A stretch of DNA of 64,000 nt from Onthophagus taurus (lineage: Eukaryota; Arthropoda; Insecta; Coleoptera; Scarabaeidae), in NCBI RefSeq assembly GCF_036711975.1, contig NC_091967.1:16740001-16804000 (forward strand). The letters run 5' to 3'. The first letter of the stretch is position 1; each line of letters opens with the position of its first letter. The position numbers and the translations under genes were made by a program. The notes below the pieces were generated by a model that searched no databases, was not told the origin of the DNA, and was given only the letters and a program-made list of their open reading frames with translations. Shown here in pieces: positions 9,199 to 45,840 of this stretch.

Positions 9199-9923
9199 GT
9201 AATTTAAAAACGTGTTGACCCACTTATAGACGCATCGACATTTAATTAATATTAACAACAAATAATAAAATCATTAGACAATAAAGTGTATGGCAATAAA
9301 GTGTATAGATTTTTTTCCAATTCGATTATGTCATCTTTCGTCAGCTTCGAAGAAGGTTAATGTTTTTATCAGATTGAAGAATAATCTTGGATCTGACTAG
9401 ATTATTTAAATTTTTGCAATAATTTTCGATACCTTGGTTCTATAACTCTTCGACAACAACTCTGCATTTACTATGATTTTAAAATGATATTATTTCAAGC
9501 AATTTTTTCTCCTATACATCAATAACTAATCATTTTTTGATAATATGAGACAAGACTCTATTGTCCCTGAAACCAAATAAGGATAAAATAAACTCTAAGT
9601 AAGCTGTTGATGATAAAGTGATATTGCGCACGGAAGCAACTAAGTGTTCTTCTATACTTGAACAATTACTTGTTCAAAACGATCTATTGCATTAACACAC
9701 ACATACTTCCATATTTAGCACATACCAAGTAGGGGCGTCAACTAGAACATGTTTCTTTATGATCTCTTGGATTGGTTCAAGCCTCTCATTAATACTCAAA
9801 TAAAGCAATGGTGAATAAGCACACTAACAGTTTTCTGCAAATTTATCAAGTTGAGCTCTTCTGATATGGCCGAGTTTATGCAGACTAACTCTCTCAAAGT
9901 TTGATCTTGTTGAGTCTTCTCGC
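9199..9923. other. intergenic or intron, nothing recognised
   Basis: Mixed AT-rich sequence with no convincing frame, repeat end or RNA gene. If the exon at 9141 is real, this would be its first intron. Confidence 0.35.
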
Positions 9924-10199
9924 TTAACCCTTTGTGTCCCGACGGTACTTTAAAGTACCGGTAGTTTTAAACACTCATTTTAAACTGTAGTCATCTATTT
10001 GGCGAATTTAAAGCTGTCGGTACTTTCTACTATACAAGAAAGGATCGGTATAAAAAATGACACAATCCGCACTGTAGGGCTTTTAGGTATATTTAAACTT
10101 ATTCGTCCAGATGTGAGGTTAGATGTTTAGTGAAAAGTCGTCTTGTTGAATTTTGTTGTTCAAAAAGGTATCTCTTTGATAAATGATTATTAGGTGTGT

Positions 10200-11835
10200 T
10201 ATTACAGATCATTTTAAAAAGAAAGCAATGAGCTTTAATTTAAAAGAAGTCTCATTCCTTAGTTTCAGTAAGCACGGCTTCCAAGAATTTTTAAATTATC
10301 ATCTTTTTTGACACTTTTAGGTTATACGAAAATGTAAGTTTTGTTTCAACATTTTTTTTTCTCAATATTTTTCAATCCAACACAACAATTATTATACATC
10401 ATTGTAAAGAGAAAGTTTTGAGCTTTAATTTAGAACAAGTCTCATTCCTTAATTTCAGTAAGCACGGCTTCCAGGAATTTTTAAATTAGCATCTTTTTCG
10501 ACACTTTTAGGTTACACGAAAATGTAAGTTTTGTTTCAACATTTTTTTTCTCAATATTTTTCCAATCCAACCCAACAATTATTATACATTATTGTAAAGA
10601 GAAAACTTTGAGCTTTAATTTAGAACGAGTTTCATTCCTTAATTTCAATAAATACGGCTTCCAGGAATTTTTAAATTAGCATCTTTTTTGACACTTTTAG
10701 GTTATACGAAAATGTAAGTTTTGTTTCAACTTGTTTTTTCGCAATATTTTTCCAATCCAACCCAACAATTATTATACATCACTGTAAAGAGAAAGCTGTG
10801 AGCTTTAATTTAGAATAAGTCTCATTCTTTAATTTCAATATATATGGCTTCCAGGAATTTTTAATTTACCATCTTTTTTGACACTTAGGTTATACGAAAA
10901 TGTAAGTTTTGTTTCAACATTTTTTTTTTCAATATTTTTGCAATCCAACCCAACAATTATTATACATCATTTTAAAGAGAAAGCTTTGAGCTTTAATTTA
11001 GAATAAGTCTCATTCCTTAATTTCAATAAATACGGCTTCCAGGAATTTTTAAATTAGCATCTTTTTTGACACTTTTAGGTTATACGAAAATGTAAGTTTT
11101 GTTTCAACATTTTTTTTTTCAATATTTTTCAATCCAACCCAACAATTATTATACATCATTATAAAGAGAAAGTTTTGAGCTTTAATTTAGAACAAGTCTC
11201 ATTCCTTAATTTCAATAAATACGGCGTCCAGGAATTTTTAAATTAGCATCTTGTTTGACACTTTTCGTTATACGAAAATGTAAGTTTTGTTTCAACATTT
11301 TTTTTCTCAATATTTTTCCAATCCAACCCAACAATTATTATACATCATTTTAAAGAGAAAGCTTTGAGCTTTAATTTAGAATAAGTCTCATTCCTTCATT
11401 TCAATAAATACGGGTTCCAGGAATTTTTAAATTAGCATCATTTTTGACACTTTTAGGTTATACGAAAATGTAAGTTTTGTTTCAACATTTTTTTTCTCAA
11501 TATTTTTCCAATCCAACCCAACAATTATTATACATCATTTTAAAGAGAAAGCTTTGAGCTTTAATTTAGAATAAGTCTCATTCCTTCATTTCAATAAATA
11601 CGGGTTCCAGGAATTTTTAAATTAGCATCATTTTTGACACTTTTAGGTTATACGAAAATGTAAGTTTTGTTTCAACATTTTTTTTCTCAATATTTTTCCA
11701 ATCCAACCCAACAATTATTATACATCATTGTAAAGAGAAAGCTATGAGCTTTAATTTAGAACAAGTCTCATTCCTTAATTTCAATAAATACGGCTTCCAT
11801 CAATTTTTGAATTTGCATCTTTTTTTGACACAGTT
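10200..11835 (+). repeat. tandem array of about nine 190-bp units
   Basis: The anchor word AGCTTTAATTT recurs at 10231, 10421, 10611, 10801, 10989, 11178, 11367, 11557 and 11747, a strikingly even spacing of 188-190 bases. Each unit contains TAAAGAGAAAG, the anchor, CTCATTCCTTAATTTC, GGAATTTTTAAATTAGCATC and TTACACGAAAATGTAAG-like sequence. The units from 11367 and 11557 are almost identical, suggesting recent expansion at the right side. Outer units differ by scattered substitutions. The array is wholly inside the TTAA-flanked element. The units are not open frames. Confidence 0.95.
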
Positions 11836-12082
11836 TTTGCTCAATATGTTTTTTCTCAATATTCTATCAGATTTTCGTCGTTCTGTAAATACAGGTCTGA
11901 TAAATAAATATTCATATTTACTACGTCCACGAGAATGCCGTAGCGCAAGTTCAAAAGAAAGAGGAAGTTGTGAAAATTGTTCTGCCAAAGCTAGTCTCCA
12001 CTCAAAATGTACTGCGTGCAATGTTTATTTATGTTGTAATGGAAGAAAGAACTGTTTTTCTGAATGTCATAATGTGATTTAG
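11744..12082 (+). pseudogene. piggyBac transposase C-terminal fragment
   Basis: The last tandem unit runs into a 112-codon frame whose final 35 residues have a Cys/His-rich pattern: CENC, CTACNVYLCC, CFSECH. This is the arrangement of the cysteine-rich domain that ends piggyBac transposases, which binds the subterminal DNA. The catalytic region with its three Asp is absent, so this is a remnant. The first 45 codons are derived from the repeat unit and probably were never transposase sequence. Confidence 0.7.
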
Positions 12083-12290
12083 ATAAAGCAAGTGTTACTT
12101 ATTTTCTAACGTAATAATAAATGTATTATTTTTATATTAGCAATAATAGTTTTTGTATACTGAAGATATGGGGGGATTGCATATTTTGCTAAAATTTATT
12201 CCAAAGGCCTCTACTGTGTGTATTTTGATAGCGTTTTAATTCTGTCACAAAGTTTCGAAATTTTTGACTTCTTGGGACACAAAGGGTTAA

Positions 12291-12654
12291 TTGGAATTCT
12301 TAAGCAGCATTGCATTAAATAGTCATTTTAACAGGTAGAAACTGCTGACAAAACTCTGTCAAGCTATCAAAGAAACAGTCAAGGTCCTTATGATCAACCA
12401 TGAAGACTATGTTCCTTACTACTTTATTTTGAAACCATCGCCACAACTCCAAACTTGACTGTCATACGTTCAAAGAGGTTTGAGCGTTTCTTATATCTGG
12501 ACAATTGACGTTTATTTCTAATAGCCAGTACATCTTTCTACACTTAAAACCAAGCTCTTCGTGTTTCTTTTTCATATGGAGCCATCTTACTCTTGCGTCG
12601 AAAATCACTTTCAGGTATTATATATCACTGAGTTAGAAGGATTCTGAGTATTGT
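12291..12654. other. intergenic, nothing recognised
   Basis: No gene or repeat boundary was recognised in this stretch between the TTAA element and the LINE fragment. Confidence 0.35.
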
Positions 12655-15839: not shown

Positions 15840-16611
15840 CATTGCAAAGAAGACTCATTCTTGTATGAGACCACGTATTGCCTATATATTATTTGTGGAG
15901 GAGCAAATAATGCTAATAGATGGCACATATTGGTTAGATAAGACTGCTCATTGCTGGAGAACAACAAATATTGCCAGCAGAGGGCTTTATACTCTTAATA
16001 AAGGAATACATACTGCTTCTGGAAGACTAGATATTGCTTGCAGAAGATGACAGGTTGTTGGAGAGCACTATATATCACTCGTGAAAGACTTGCAATACTT
16101 ATAGAAGGCTATATACAGGTTTATAAGACTGCTTATTACAGGAGAAGAACAAATACTGCCTGTAGAGGACTCGGTTACTACATATTGTTGGCAGAGAGGA
16201 ATGTATACTGTCCCTGGAACACTAGATACTGCTTCCAGAAGACTACAGATTGTTGGAGAAAACAATATATCACTTATGGAAGACTAAATAATGCTAATAG
16301 AATACTGCATACTGGTTTATAAAACTGCTTATTACTAGAGAAGAACAAATACGGCCAGCAGAATACTACATACTGTTGGTAAAGAACTATATACTTCTTC
16401 TGTAAGACTAGATTTTGCTTGCAGAAAACTACAGATTATTGGAGAAGATTATATCTTACTTGTGGAAGACTAGACAATGCTAATAGAAGACTGGATACTG
16501 GTTTATAAGACTGCTTATTACCCGAGAAGAACAAATACTGCCAGCAGAGGACTATATACTGTTGGTAAAGAACTATACACTGCTTCTGGAAAACTAGATA
16601 CTGGAAAACTA

Positions 16612-16925: not shown

Positions 16926-17482
16926 GTATATCACTTGTGGACCAGGCAATGCTAATAGAAGACTGCATACTGGTTTATAAGACTGCTTATTACAGGAGAA
17001 GAACAAATACTGCTTGCAGAGGACTGCATACTATTGGCAGAGAAATGTATACTGTTCCTGGAAGACTAAATACTGCTTATAGAAGGTTACAGATTGTTGG
17101 AGAAGACTATATACCACTTGTGGAGGACTAGGCAATGCTAATAGAAGACTGCATACTGGTTTATAAGACTGTTTATTATTGGAGAACAAATACTGGCAGC
17201 AGAGGACTACATACTGTTGGTAAAGGAATACATACTGTCTCTGGAAGACTAGATACTGTTTGCAGAAGACCACAGATTGTTGAAGAAGCCAACATATCAC
17301 TGGTAGATGACTTGACAATGCTAAGAGAACGCTGGATACGGGCTACAAAAGATTGCTCACTGCTGGAGAAGAACAAATACGGCCAGCAGAGTACTACATA
17401 CTTTTGACAGAAGACTATATACTGCTTCTGAAAGACTAGATCTGCTTGCAGAAGACTGCAGATTGTCGGAGAAGACTATACA

Positions 17483-20599: not shown

Positions 20600-23590
20600 A
20601 TGAATTCAATAAATGACGAGGAGTTGAGGGGTTGTTTAGTTAATAATTTAATTATTGATAATGTAACAGAAAAATGTAGGATATGCTTGAATCCTTCGGA
20701 TTTAATCAGCTTGCAAGCTGTGGTTTACGAAGATTTAACATGCAATGGTATTTTAATGTCTACTTTATCACTACAGGTAAGGTTAAGCTTATAGTTTGTA
20801 TTTAAAATTTTGTGAGTATCAAAGGCTTAAGTAATAAAGTATACAGTTTTTGATTTTGGTATAATTCAAGAATCATCATGTTGCTTAAAAATCGACAATT
20901 TTTTTTTATTCGACCGGAAATCACTCAAGGAAGCCGTTACAAATAAAAAAAAGTGCGGAAAAGCGTTAAACTTATCGAAAAATCACTTTAAAGTTTGGAT
21001 GTGACGTCACATAGAAACTCGTTTTGTGACGTCACTTTTTGTTTTTGCTTCAGACGCACGACTAAACCCGAATGATTCTAGTTCTAGGTCTAGTATTAGT
21101 TCTAGTTTTACACTGGCACTAGAACTAACACAAGATCTAGAACTAGAATCAATCGGGTTTAGCCGTCTTGAGAGACGTGCGGCTAAATCCGAATGTTTCT
21201 AGTTCTAGGTCTAGTGTTCGTTCTAGTTTTACGCTAGCACTAGATCTAACACAAGCGCTAAAACTAGAATCATTCGGGTTTAGCCGTCTTGAGAGACATG
21301 CGGCTAAACCTGAATGTTTCTAGTTCTAGGTCCAGTGTTAGTTCTAGTTTTACACTGGCACTAGAACTAACACAAGACCTAGAACTAGAATCAATCGGAT
21401 TTAGCCGTCTTGAGAGACGTGCTGCTAGCCTTCCTGACGAATTTCCTTAGCTGAAGAGACCAATGGAAGTCGAAACAAGCAAAACAAAAATATATTCTGT
21501 TATGTTTGTCGAACGATGCTTTCTGAACGCTGTCTTTCTGAAACACAATGTCTTTTGCTTGCCAAATCTTTTCAAAGTGCGATTTTTGCACAAATTTCTG
21601 GGAAATGCTTTGCTTTTGTCAATAGTTTGCGTTGAAGACAAAATGGGATTCATTCAAAGTAGTGCTGTGAATGTGCAGTTCTACACAAGGTGTAGTGTTC
21701 CCAGTTTGCTTGCCGTTTTCGAACTATCCGGTTCTCATCAGCACGACGAAGAAGTCGTGGAACAAAGGTTTTGCAGAGTGATGTTGCTCAAAGCATTTCT
21801 CAAAAGACAAAGAATTGAATTTCAAAGTCAAAAGAAATCTGAGTTTTGTGGAGTTACGAATTTTGCTCAAAGTAAGGTTTCATATTTTAATCACCACGTT
21901 TATCCTAAGGTTGTCAGAATCTGTGTTGCCTTCCTGACACAGCAAGCAAAAGTCTTAGGTGTTAACTGGTTTAATATTCTACACTTCTCCGCGCTTTCTT
22001 TTTATTTTTATCGTGTTTTTTGGGTAATTTCACATTAATTTCGATTTTTAAGCCAACATGATGATTCTTGAATTTCTCCGTATTTTTATATCTTCTCTTT
22101 TTAATTGTTAGTTAACACCAGTAGAAGGCTACCCACAAAATGTTTGTTCTAATTGTGTCGATGAAATAATAAAAATCTATACGTTTAAATTAAAAATTGA
22201 AAATACAGATAAACATTTAAGTAATATTTTAAATAAAAAAGAAGGAAAACTTAACGAAACTTGTTTGGGAAAAGATCATGACTACTTCGTTTATGATAAA
22301 CCATTAATTAAATCTCCTACTGTTAAATCTCGTCCAAAAAGTATACAAAATCCTGATCTTTTCGTTAAACGTTCAAAGAAATCTAAAAAAGTAAGAATGA
22401 CAAAAGAAGATGATATGATTGAAGAAGCTGGAAAAATATTGTCCACAAAAGCGTTACCATCAGACTGCAAAAATTGTAAAGTTCAATTAACTAAAAAATT
22501 CAAGGCCAACGATAAATCAGAAGCTCAAGTTACATCCAAATTATTACCTTGCACACAATGTGAAAAAAAATTTACTAAAAGTAAATTATTGGAACACATA
22601 CGAGTTCATACAAGAGAACAACCGTTTGTTTGTAAAATTTGCAACATGAGTTTTAGTATTAAATCGAATTTAAAGAGGCATATGATGATTCATACTGGTG
22701 AAAGACCATTTTTTTGTGACGTTTGTGGAAAAGGTACTTTTAATACAAGTTTTTTCTTAATAAATAATTTTTTTGTTCAAATAGGTTTCATCCAAGGATT
22801 AAGTTTAAAAGTGCACCGACAAACACACTTTAAATCAAAAGATGCATGTCGTCGTGGTCCAAGACCAAGAGATCCAAATCTACCAACACTTGAATGTCAA
22901 ATCTGCGGTCAAACTTTTAAACGCGAATACATGTATCGAGCTCATTTACTACAAAAACATAGCGTTACTTCTGGCGCGATGAGTGATCCCTTAACAATAA
23001 TTCCATTAGATGCTACATCAAACTTGGAAATCCCACGACCATTTAAATGCCCTATTTGCCATCAGTGTTATACTAGTAAACAATATTTAAAACAACATCA
23101 ACGTATTCATGGCGAAAAAAAATATTTATGTAATGTGTGCGGTAAACGTTTTCATCAAAACGCCGCGCTTCAAACTCATTCAAGAATCCATACAGGTGAA
23201 AAACCCCACCAATGTAATATTTGCAAGAAATCTTTTGCGTATATTAGTAGTTTAGATACACATATGTTATTACATACCGGAGAAAAACCTCACGTTTGTA
23301 ACGTTTGTGGGAAAGCATTTACGCAAGTACCTCATTTAAAACATCACATGCGAATTCATACAGGAGAAAAACCTTATCAGTGTACATATTGCTCTAAATG
23401 TTTTGCACTTAAAGGAAATCTAACAGTACATATCCGAACTCATACTGGAGAAACTCCCTATTATTGTGATCTTTGTGGAAAAGGATTTCACGATTCTAGT
23501 AGTATGAAAAAACATCGAAAAGGACATGGGGACTTTAACATACAAGTGTTAGATGTTATGGAAAAAGTGCAACAAAATGAAGATTTTTAA
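20600..23590 (+). CDS. ZAD-type C2H2 zinc-finger protein with ten fingers
   Basis: A probable DNA-binding transcription factor of the arthropod ZAD class. Exons: 20600-20776, 22112-22733 and 22785-23590, giving 534 aa. The ZAD zinc ligands are split by the first intron: CRIC (C26, C29) in exon 1 and CSNC (C71, C74) in exon 2. A basic linker with RSKKSKK follows, then ten C2H2 fingers from about residue 206 to 515 with TGEKP-type linkers in fingers 5-10. Finger 3 reads correctly (CDVCGKGFIQGLSLKVH) only if a 51-bp intron (22734-22784, GT...AG) is removed. That intron is a multiple of three and has no stop, so unspliced RNA would also translate. The first AUG is 20600; the frame continues upstream only to a TTG. 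AATAAA follows at 23679. The 1.3-kb first intron holds a transposon. Confidence 0.93.
21059..21422. repeat. three 121-bp tandem hairpin units of the CTAGTTCTAG family
   Basis: Units start at 21059, 21180 and 21301. Each reads CGGCTAAACCCGAATG-like, then CTAGTTCTAGGTCTAGTGTT and AGTTCTAGTTTTA, a short centre, then the complementary arm CACTAGAACTAACAC plus CTAGAACTAGAATCA, then CGGGTTTAGCCG and TCTTGAGAGACG. Each unit can therefore fold into a long stem. The same words recur at 4237, 24720, 40770, 46240 and 51430. Confidence 0.9.
21463..22038 (+). CDS. 191-codon ORF inside the intronic transposon, unknown
   Basis: An ATG-started frame with no recognised domain. It is the longest frame in the element but has unusually many Phe, Val and Cys and no transposase signature. 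It ends within the right inverted repeat. It may be a chance frame, since the region is richer in GC than its surroundings. Confidence 0.2.
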   Translation: MEVETSKTKIYSVMFVERCFLNAVFLKHNVFCLPNLFKVRFLHKFLGNALLLSIVCVEDKMGFIQSSAVNVQFYTRCSVPSLLAVFELSGSHQHDEEVVEQRFCRVMLLKAFLKRQRIEFQSQKKSEFCGVTNFAQSKVSYFNHHVYPKVVRICVAFLTQQAKVLGVNWFNILHFSALSFYFYRVFWVISH

Positions 23591-43337: not shown

Positions 43338-43440
43338 GGTTATCCAACTTGAGTCGGTTACCATGGTGATTAAGATCCAAATATTGCAGATGCTTGTCAA
43401 AATTGAATTTAAATTGTTTTAAGGAATAAGTCTTATTTAA
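43338..43440. repeat. left part of a host repeat split by piggyBac
   Basis: GGTTATCCAACTTGAGTCGG, then TTACCATGGTGATTAAGATC, matches 45994 onward. It stops at TTAA where the piggyBac begins and resumes at 45745. Confidence 0.85.
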
Positions 43441-45744
43441 CCCTCGGATGACGGATGCCTTGATAGCGACGCGCGAGTCGAATACCGGGTCAATTAGACC
43501 CACATCAAAATAATATTTTGTTAAGAAGGGAAAATAAAAAATGTACTAATACAAAATATTATAAACTAGTTTATTTATGTTGAAGAACAATCTATACATA
43601 GAATTTTAGTAGGTACTGTATGATTATGACATATAAAATTATTACATTGTTCACATTTTTTACTATATTTATTGTCGTTTCCCACACAAACATGACAACG
43701 TGATCGTTTTGAAGATGTTTGTGGAGTCTGATTCTTTCTTCTTATTGGTCTACCGTACGCTTCAAATGCTTGTGCTATGTGTTTATGTAACCCTGTTGCG
43801 TTGTTTTCGAATCGTTGTGCCCGTCGCTCAATATATTCTGTAACTAACTCTTTTGCTAAAATCTCAAGAAATATTTTTCGTTTATTTTTCATAGAACTTT
43901 TTGACTCCCATTCAGGGTTTTTGGTTATCCAAATAACCAATGCATTATAAGCTGCAATATCTATAAAATTTTGAAAGAGAGACATGGGCCAGCGTCTTGT
44001 GGATCGACGACATGTGTATTCTCTTAGTAATTTATCTAGTGTGTCTACACCACTTTTTGTCGAATTGTAGTACTTTATAATTTCAGGTTTGAAATTATTT
44101 TCGGAATTAGATATACTGAATTCATGATGTATACTTGAAAGTAAAACAACACATTTTCGTATCTTAGGTACATATGAGACTAAAGTCAACTTATTTGTGA
44201 ACAGAAATTGCGATGAATATTGTTCTCTATGATAAGTGCCAACAATAGATTTTGGAAGATCTTTTCTATTTTTGCGAATTGTGCCCACAAGAAAGCAACC
44301 ATTATCTAATAAATATTCCGCTAATATTATGCTCGTAAAAAAATTATCTGTGGTTATAACACGATTAGAATTCTTCCAAAAATCAGTTAGTTGTTTGACA
44401 ACGCGTTGGCCTTGATCCTTTTCAGGAATTTGTCCGATCTTACCCAGATAAATGTCGAAATTGCAACAGTAATATGTTTTGGCATCGCAAAGTGTCCATA
44501 TTTTTATACCATATTTCCCTGGTTTTGACGGCATATAAACTTTGAAGGGACACCGTCCCCGGTATGTAACTAGTTGTTCATCTACTGTACCTGTATTTGA
44601 TGCCTCGTAAGATTCCCGACAATTTGCCGCAAACATATCTGATACTTCCCGTATAGGTGCTAATTTATCCACTTTTTTTCTATCTTCCCGGGTTTCCGTA
44701 TTGTCAAATCTTATGAACCTCAGAATATCTTTGAATCTGTCACGTGCCATAACCACGGTATACATCTGCCTTGATAATACATTGTCTTTTCGCCATAAGT
44801 CGTTCCTGCTTTCACGAGATTCTCTAAATCTTCCGATGAGTAGTAGAAGACCTAGAACTGCATATATTTCTATGGAATCTACTTCTTTCCAAGAGTGAAA
44901 GTCAGTAGCGTAATGTGCATTGGCTCTTTGATTGGTGTGTGTAACAATGTTTGCAATGATACTATCGTCCATGAATAATTTGAAACATTCTTCTATAGAT
45001 TTTACATTTCGACTTTTATTTGTCAAAGAGCCACTTTGATGAACACTCTGTGGGCATTCAACAGATTTCGGAGCAATATATTTCCATGTACGATTACAAA
45101 TCGTTTCACTTCGGTTATCATTATCTTCTTCATCTGATTCCGACGCAGTAAATATATCCGCTTCACTATCTTGCATTTCCGGTTCCACATCGCTCATTGT
45201 GCTACATGATTCTTCCTCTGAAAACTCATCGTCTTCTTCATCTCTGGCAAAATCACTAAAATTCGTAGTGTTTTCCATGTTTTTACGCAGTTGAAGTAAA
45301 ATGCACTACACCTCTATCGGTTCACTCGCTTTCTGACTCAAATATACAAATAAAACTCGAATTAGGTAATGAGTCATGATACCCAGTTCCGCGCCATGCA
45401 TATGTGCAAAACCCCCGGCGCCAGATAAAAAAAGACGCCGCGACGCCGCCGCAGCGTTGGTGAACACGTTCGTCGTTTGAATAGTTACTACGTGTACTCA
45501 CAAAAAAGGCACTAAAAGTCATCAGTTTACAATGTAGACGAAGATTTTATTTAATCATTACAGAAACAATGAAATTGAAAAAAATGCAAAAATAAATGAT
45601 CACATTTCATAAGGAATTAAATTGGCATGAACTGACGTGCTCATTATTTTTTACCTGATACCGTTCAACCGACACACGTAAAATTTCTGGTAAGATTGCG
45701 CTGAAATCCCGGGTCACAATGACCCTGCCTTCGCCGGGCGAGGG
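43441..45744 (-). mobile_element. intact piggyBac transposon, 2.3 kb
   Basis: Flanked by TTAA at 43437-43440 and 45745-45748. Ends begin CCCTCG and end CGAGGG, with further similarity inside: each end has a GGGTCA...GACCC-type inverted motif (43487-43501 and 45711-45725). One full-length transposase frame fills the interior on the minus strand. The absence of any stop or frameshift, and the empty paralogous site next door, point to a fairly recent arrival. Confidence 0.95.
43575..45278 (-). CDS. piggyBac transposase, full length
   Basis: A 567-aa cut-and-paste transposase that excises and inserts DNA at TTAA. The N-terminus is acidic (residues 13-55). The catalytic Asp triad is complete: D233 in TVDEQLVTYRG, D311 in ITTDNFFTS, D412 in KSGVDTLD. 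The dimer and insertion domains between read through. The C-terminus (527-564) is the cysteine-rich domain CHVC-CEQC-CHNH-CIDC, which binds subterminal DNA. It starts at ATG 45278; a TTG- or GTG-led frame just upstream is unrelated. The ORF occupies 74% of the element, leaving about 465 bp at the transcription-start side. Nothing is missing, so it may still be active. Confidence 0.97.
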   Translation of the reverse strand: MENTTNFSDFARDEEDDEFSEEESCSTMSDVEPEMQDSEADIFTASESDEEDNDNRSETICNRTWKYIAPKSVECPQSVHQSGSLTNKSRNVKSIEECFKLFMDDSIIANIVTHTNQRANAHYATDFHSWKEVDSIEIYAVLGLLLLIGRFRESRESRNDLWRKDNVLSRQMYTVVMARDRFKDILRFIRFDNTETREDRKKVDKLAPIREVSDMFAANCRESYEASNTGTVDEQLVTYRGRCPFKVYMPSKPGKYGIKIWTLCDAKTYYCCNFDIYLGKIGQIPEKDQGQRVVKQLTDFWKNSNRVITTDNFFTSIILAEYLLDNGCFLVGTIRKNRKDLPKSIVGTYHREQYSSQFLFTNKLTLVSYVPKIRKCVVLLSSIHHEFSISNSENNFKPEIIKYYNSTKSGVDTLDKLLREYTCRRSTRRWPMSLFQNFIDIAAYNALVIWITKNPEWESKSSMKNKRKIFLEILAKELVTEYIERRAQRFENNATGLHKHIAQAFEAYGRPIRRKNQTPQTSSKRSRCHVCVGNDNKYSKKCEQCNNFICHNHTVPTKILCIDCSST

Positions 45745-45840
45745 TTAATTGGGTTAAAAGGCTGTATTTAACTCAAAATTGGTTTATCTAGGGAATTGTA
45801 AACAAGGTAAGTGGATTAAATCAAAAAAAATATTTTTAAT
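45745..45840. repeat. right part of the host repeat split by piggyBac
   Basis: From TTAATTGGGTTAAAAGGCTG to AAGGTAAGTGGATTAAAT, matching the uninterrupted copy at about 46107-46195. Confidence 0.85.

Follow-up and report, generated by a model that had tools for sequence, protein, structure and literature searches.

How does a transposon come to consist for the most part of a satellite-like tandem array, and does it carry that array through the genome? The question is raised by one element in the window, the 64,000-nucleotide stretch of Onthophagus taurus DNA analysed here, which lies within contig C2 of a 290.8-Mb host assembly in 33 contigs. A first-pass annotation, made from the letters alone, had read the locus as a piggyBac-type transposon that carries a satellite, amplified either before insertion or by unequal exchange after it, and had suggested that mobile satellites of this kind could seed new satellite loci.

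Structure and class of the window element

The sequence at 9928–12286 is a single 2,359-bp element with TTAA on either side (9924–9927 and 12287–12290), the two copies of the target-site duplication. Its inverted ends, CCCTTTGTGTCCC on the left (9928–9940, plus strand) and GGGACACAAAGGG on the right (12274–12286, minus strand), match perfectly over 13 bp, which bears out the outline first drawn for the element. A 265-bp 5′ end (9928–10192, plus strand), containing a subterminal inverted repeat at 9952–10026 with arms 9952–9971 and 10007–10026, leads into the array. Tandem Repeats Finder places the array at 10199–11831 with a period of 190, 8.6 copies, 93% matches and a score of 2786, and it makes up 1,633 of the 2,359 bp (69%), in agreement with the two-thirds claimed before. 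A profile built from the window's own units extends from 10199 to 11866 and resolves eight full units and a ninth that ends at model position 174. All are on the plus strand: unit 1, the edge unit, at 10199–10387, units 2 to 6 at 10389–10577, 10579–10767, 10769–10955, 10957–11144 and 11146–11333, units 7 and 8 at 11335–11523 and 11525–11713, and the partial unit 9 (model positions 2–174) at 11715–11866. The spacing of the units is 190, 190, 188, 189, 189, 190 and 190 bp. Units 7 and 8, previously described as near-identical neighbours, are identical. As an RNA gene the unit was rejected, with no Rfam match at the gathering score and no tRNA in 9600–12600.

The last partial unit passes into a 73-codon frame, whose start overlaps it and whose stop lies at 12080–12082 (11861–12082, plus strand). 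This region of the window element matches the C-terminus of the intact piggyBac transposase of locus L044 (30% over 128 residues, E 1.7e-6), and its DNA matches that of broken transposase relics that have the same ends; the 73-residue remnant by itself gives no Pfam match. The join of the last unit to a transposase C-terminal fragment had thus been recognised correctly. The 3′ end of the element (12083–12286, plus strand) is common to relics L069–L074 and, by eye, to L031.

The piggyBac label also holds. The 13-bp ends begin with CCC (CCCTTTG), as piggyBac-type terminal inverted repeats do, and passages of PMC12732532 report CCCT and CCCTTT starts in beetle piggyBacs. Relics sharing these ends encode broken transposase of PF13843 type, the L031 piece matching this family at 8.5e-25. 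TTAA stands on both sides in 12 of 12 elements checked. A pattern that itself contains TTAA had found eight of these, which leaves the window element, L007, L069 and L070 as independent cases; the relics L071 and L072 are one base off TTAA at one end. Judged by its sequence, the window element is a non-autonomous transposon of the piggyBac superfamily. A strict MITE is very short, a few hundred bp, and non-coding. For that class the 2,359-bp window element is too long, as are the 28 elements delimited by neighbouring exact-end pairs among the first 100 listed end matches, which measure 1,084–2,812 bp (median 1,844).

The sequence of another array-bearing member records an insertion at TTAA. 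The 12-unit element C1:2339962–2342532 (locus L022) interrupts a dispersed repeat at TTAA, and its joined flanks recover at least 27 uninterrupted copies of the site at 93–98% identity among 40 scored of 1,403 candidates. Three of the uninterrupted sites were read, and each has an unbroken TTAA run and no element. The flanks of L022 belong to a dispersed repeat family with at least 27 other copies at 93–98% identity. For the window element the flanks found no match but themselves, and its own empty site was not seen among the 40 of 1,403 candidates scored. The carrier idea had been made to depend on TTAA and the ends being present in homologous alleles, and it is through this one member and its 27 uninterrupted target sites that it passes.

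The window and its host genome hold other repeats and transposons besides. A second, different piggyBac at 43437–45748 has TTAA at both ends and an intact 567-aa transposase (43575–45278, minus strand); a copy on C1 (L106) agrees with it at 100% over 2,312 bp, and eight copies have an equal PF13843 score, which points to recent activity. The genome is rich in piggyBac transposases, with 3,102 first-look PF13843 candidates and many frames above 500 aa among the 116 scored. A 121-bp tandem array in three copies at 21062–21427 has relatives in L022, L015, L072, L003 and L078, several of them on both strands, and belongs to a dispersed, partly palindromic repeat family. Neighbouring arrays at 15882–16600 and 16939–17480, whose units of 186 and 183 bp are composed of a shorter GAAGACTACATACTG-like motif, had no match among the loci fetched from the genome.

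The element family and its transposase-bearing relatives

TTAA followed by CCCTTTGTGTCCC, at no more than one mismatch, has 706 matches in the genome (360 forward and 346 reverse), against none for the reversed pattern, which excludes chance. Thirty end-centred loci from the top of the list, every one a perfect match on C1, were viewed over 1.5 kb inward from each end, and 28 of them show the 190-bp unit, which is non-coding. Eight elements were seen from both ends, so these loci reduce to 22 distinct elements, 20 of which contain the unit. A 22-base unit motif, at no more than two mismatches, has 6,249 matches in the genome against none in the control, and its occurrence in 182 of 193 sampled units leads to an estimate of about 6,600 units, or some 1.26 Mb and 0.43% of the assembly. 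The family counts several hundred copies, has lost its own enzyme and carries 190-bp arrays, and the view of the window transposon as carrier of a satellite-like array is upheld by the units in its relatives. The finding that was to speak against that view, a unit confined to this locus, is the opposite of what is seen, with thousands of occurrences genome-wide.

The presence of units in 20 of 22 distinct elements could also mean that selection has kept the repeats for a function in transposition, such as extra binding sites for the transposase; the end repeats of Galileo are described in passages of PMC4079207 as containing such extra sites. Against a role of this sort, six end and subterminal motifs were tested and 0 of 193 units contain any of them, and the unit-less relics L069 and L070 have the same ends with TTAA on both sides. 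We consider it very improbable.

Transposase relics with the same ends contain no units in six of six fetched loci (L069–L074). Their 5′ end is 88–91% identical to that of the window element in five of the six (blastn against L069–L073) and their 3′ end 72–90% in pieces, and the terminal repeats of L069–L073 are recognisable at up to three mismatches on at least one side. Matches to the 184-residue L031 relic piece mostly contain stops or cover it in part, and none of the intact transposases found has exactly these ends. L044, the closest intact relative, has 577 aa, is 52–62% identical to the L031 piece and belongs to a TTAA-flanked 2.8-kb element with ends CCCTTTGTATACC.

The junctions of the arrays relate these relics to the window element: the array occupies the place of a part of the transposase gene that the relics have, and most of that gene is missing from the window element. 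In L010, transposase codons lie on both sides of the array. In both L010 and L008 the array comes after transposase codons with an identical left junction (unit position 90/91), and on the right side of L010 it meets C-terminal codons; relics L071–L074 have tens of coding bases between those points. The left junction of L035 is a different one, inside transposase sequence, and in the window type the 5′ end is joined straight to unit position 2, so there are at least three left junctions. Right junctions fall into several classes, at unit positions of about 174, 146, 124 and 100 among others. The simplest reading is that the array first took its place in the part of the transposase gene that encodes the C-terminus, and that transposase sequence was later stripped away repeatedly; recombination between copies could be another route to such mixtures of junctions.

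Derivation of the unit from the parent transposon was rejected, as 12 of 12 comparisons (six sequences, both strands) fall within the range of dinucleotide shuffles. This lack of detectable similarity favours an alternative in which the repair of a transposase-bearing element took up a pre-existing free satellite as filler DNA, the array being older than the family; passages of PMC7492417 and PMC12628747 offer this explanation for the Helentron and Tc1/mariner MITE cases. It is opposed by the attachment of the arrays that were sampled: no flank-free array was met in 20 of 20 loci from the first 13.9 Mb of C1, or in 40 scored of 856 candidates from a query that favours attached arrays. Capture seems to us a minority prospect.

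Array change before dispersal and after insertion

An alignment of 193 full units from 28 elements gives a mean identity of 0.919 between elements and of 0.936–0.956, by distance, within them. The best match lies in the same element for 104 of the 193 units, against a mean of 10 and a maximum of 23 in 200 shuffles of the labels, and the units thus display the concerted evolution within arrays that is a feature of satellites. Of the 27 elements that have two or more full units, five, all short, have a lower mean identity within the element than to other elements, and in one the two values are equal. Only 14 units have an adjacent unit as best match, and neighbours are not the most similar.

First units are alike by position. 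When they are compared with other elements only, 12 of 15 find their closest counterpart in another first unit (null mean 1.26, maximum 11, 2,000 shuffles), and the overall best match lies in the own element for 1 of 15 first units versus 96 of 157 interior units. Because first units match by position across loci, the left edge was inherited by descent, and an array predates the dispersal of the family. The same test on the last complete unit is weak, with 8 of 21 against a null mean of 3.2, a maximum of 15 and a long tail.

Inside the arrays, duplications private to single loci are found. In L004 units 2–5 are identical to units 8–11 (lag 6), in L008 units 5–7 are identical to units 9–11 (lag 4), L002 has several identical pairs of units at lags 4, 5 and 9, and the identical units 7 and 8 of the window element are a further case. 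A permutation test of unit order gives p<0.05, uncorrected, in 3 of 10 elements (L002 0.0005, L004 0.0085, L006 0.024), of which L002 alone would survive a ten-test correction; p is 0.88 for the window element. Such a pattern is what unequal exchange of units or blocks would leave behind once an element had inserted, and gene conversion or other duplication mechanisms may also produce it. Both of the routes that the first-pass annotation had offered as alternatives have left traces, amplification before insertion in the first units alike by position across loci, and exchange after insertion in the private block duplications and in interior units that mostly match within their locus.

Copy number per locus had been proposed for comparison, and array lengths do vary between loci, as counted throughout in one assembly. 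Reliance of the unit counts on a single assembly is what could be said for regarding the expansions and block duplications as assembly artefacts. Against this, block sizes vary by locus, blocks are not solely exact copies, and all 28 elements delimited by the exact-end pairs described above are shorter than 3 kb, which leaves artefact a scarcely credible account of array change.

Outgrown arrays, known systems and a proposed history

Arrays outside TTAA-flanked elements, for which a search had been recommended, were absent from the loci sampled. In an exact-unit-motif sample of the first 13.9 Mb of C1, which passes over arrays without the exact motif (L010 is one) and is less biased than a query with the whole element, all 20 array loci keep element flank sequence, 17 with a perfect TTAA-end and the other three with degenerate ends or inner flanks. 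With the whole-element query, which favours attached arrays, some flank is kept at 40 of 40 scored loci and both ends at 24 (40 of 856 candidates). Five of the 16 loci without both ends were read at their borders, and element sequence, 5′ or 3′, persists in each of them. Among the loci examined, a small part of the genome, no array has lost both ends, and on this sample the class of classical free satellite was rejected.

Some arrays have nevertheless come close. Three end abruptly within a unit at one border: C5:6203069–6213852, C5:8204974–8209072 and C1:43329796–43332378. The first, the largest array seen, is about 10.8 kb long (about 57 units by length/190), has lost its left end inside a unit and retains only the 3′ end of the element; it adjoins an exon of a gene that resembles T-type calcium channels (PF00520 at 6e-10; the top PDB match, at 3.8e-21, is a T-type channel). 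Another array separates two pieces of a carboxylesterase-like gene, of which the second matches PF00135 at 7.3e-9 and the first at 0.0014, short of the family cut-off. The three truncated loci favour the idea that elements seed satellite loci which become independent of the transposon. Opposed to it are the loci examined, in none of which an array has lost both ends, and the complete 8.4-kb element C5:11432456–11440894, whose two ends make clear that array growth does not need end loss. The earlier suggestion that new free satellite loci are seeded is so far unsupported, the array of about 57 units minus one end being the nearest case, and we think it doubtful.

Transposons that carry satellite arrays are already known, among them Xstir/Xmix, Tetris and Cg_HINE, and the window family works like these. 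Xmix and Xstir of Xenopus (T2-MITE, Kolobok) are described in passages of PMC6004289 and PMC12628747 as TTAA-flanked and non-autonomous, with an internal segment amplified to a large repeat family. Unlike the window element, they belong to Kolobok and have a terminal AGGRR (PMC6004289); the window ends are CCCTTTG without AGGRR, for which a Kolobok T2-MITE was rejected, and the relatives have a piggyBac PF13843 transposase. Tetris, with the TIR-220 repeats of Drosophila virilis, resembles the window family in its transposon-borne repeats of about 220 bp, present in dozens of copies in places, for which passages of PMC4079207 propose unequal crossing-over. Tetris is a foldback element with the repeats within its terminal inverted repeats and with satellite-like arrays of kb size, whereas the window family has a single central array, short ends and no free arrays in the sampled loci. 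The Helentrons Cg_HINE, Pearl and DINE-1 are likewise non-autonomous and dispersed genome-wide with central satellite-like repeats, but the class makes no target-site duplication by the account in passages of PMC7492417, and with TTAA on both sides of the window element a Helentron or HINE was rejected.

Three further systems share single features. The Tc1/mariner MITE miDNA4 of Xenopus, in passages of PMC12628747, has an internal satellite of variable copy number and belongs to a different superfamily from the window element. The TCAST transposon-like elements of Tribolium castaneum, in passages of PMC3411249, hold a satellite within elements that have inverted ends and target duplications and lie near genes; their monomer is in long inverted repeats, with an ACT duplication and no long central array. 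CMITE of corals, in the abstract of PMC2872659, is non-autonomous, piggyBac-related and linked with tandem arrays, but there the MITEs themselves are arrayed, while the window family arrays an internal 190-bp unit inside one element. A limited search of the open-licence literature found no piggyBac element with an internal satellite array; a frog paper (PMC10794172) considered as a piggyBac minisatellite precedent was set aside, its available passages treating other elements. The general idea of satellite-carrying transposons is, then, already published for other superfamilies.

For the window family, we hold it very probable that this is an array-bearing non-autonomous piggyBac whose array was formed inside the transposase gene, which then underwent deletions, spread by mobilisation in trans and changed in length locally. 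A piggyBac element with CCCTTTGTGTCCC ends would first have received a sequence in the C-terminal portion of its transposase gene, where this sequence became tandemly repeated, and several separate internal deletions would subsequently have taken out the transposase gene up to the array; this order of the two events is the one we infer. The shells, including the array, would then have been cut and pasted to hundreds of TTAA sites by transposase acting in trans, a source that we can only infer because no intact transposase with exactly these ends was found. After landing, the arrays would change in length independently of each other, presumably through unequal exchange that involves one unit or a block of several, and not through a different duplication mechanism, with first units left alike by position and interior units alike within a locus. 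Some arrays would in this way reach about 40–57 units, by estimate from length, occasionally with the loss of an element end. The absence of homology between the 190-bp unit and the parent element counts against this history.

The way in which satellites reach other chromosomes and enter euchromatin is a long-standing question. This one genome combines unit-less transposase relatives, arrays still joined to pieces of transposase, stripped carriers whose units number from a few to a dozen, and arrays of 40–57 units. Many loci begin from the same edges, so that the rates and block sizes of array change are measurable against fixed reference points. Tentatively, the piggyBac family might be a dispersed nursery of an emerging satellite, in which hundreds of short arrays are sown into TTAA sites, including sites within genes, each to evolve its own higher-order repeat and some to outgrow the element and lose an end. 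If this were true, the passage from mobile element to fixed satellite would be readable stage by stage in one genome.
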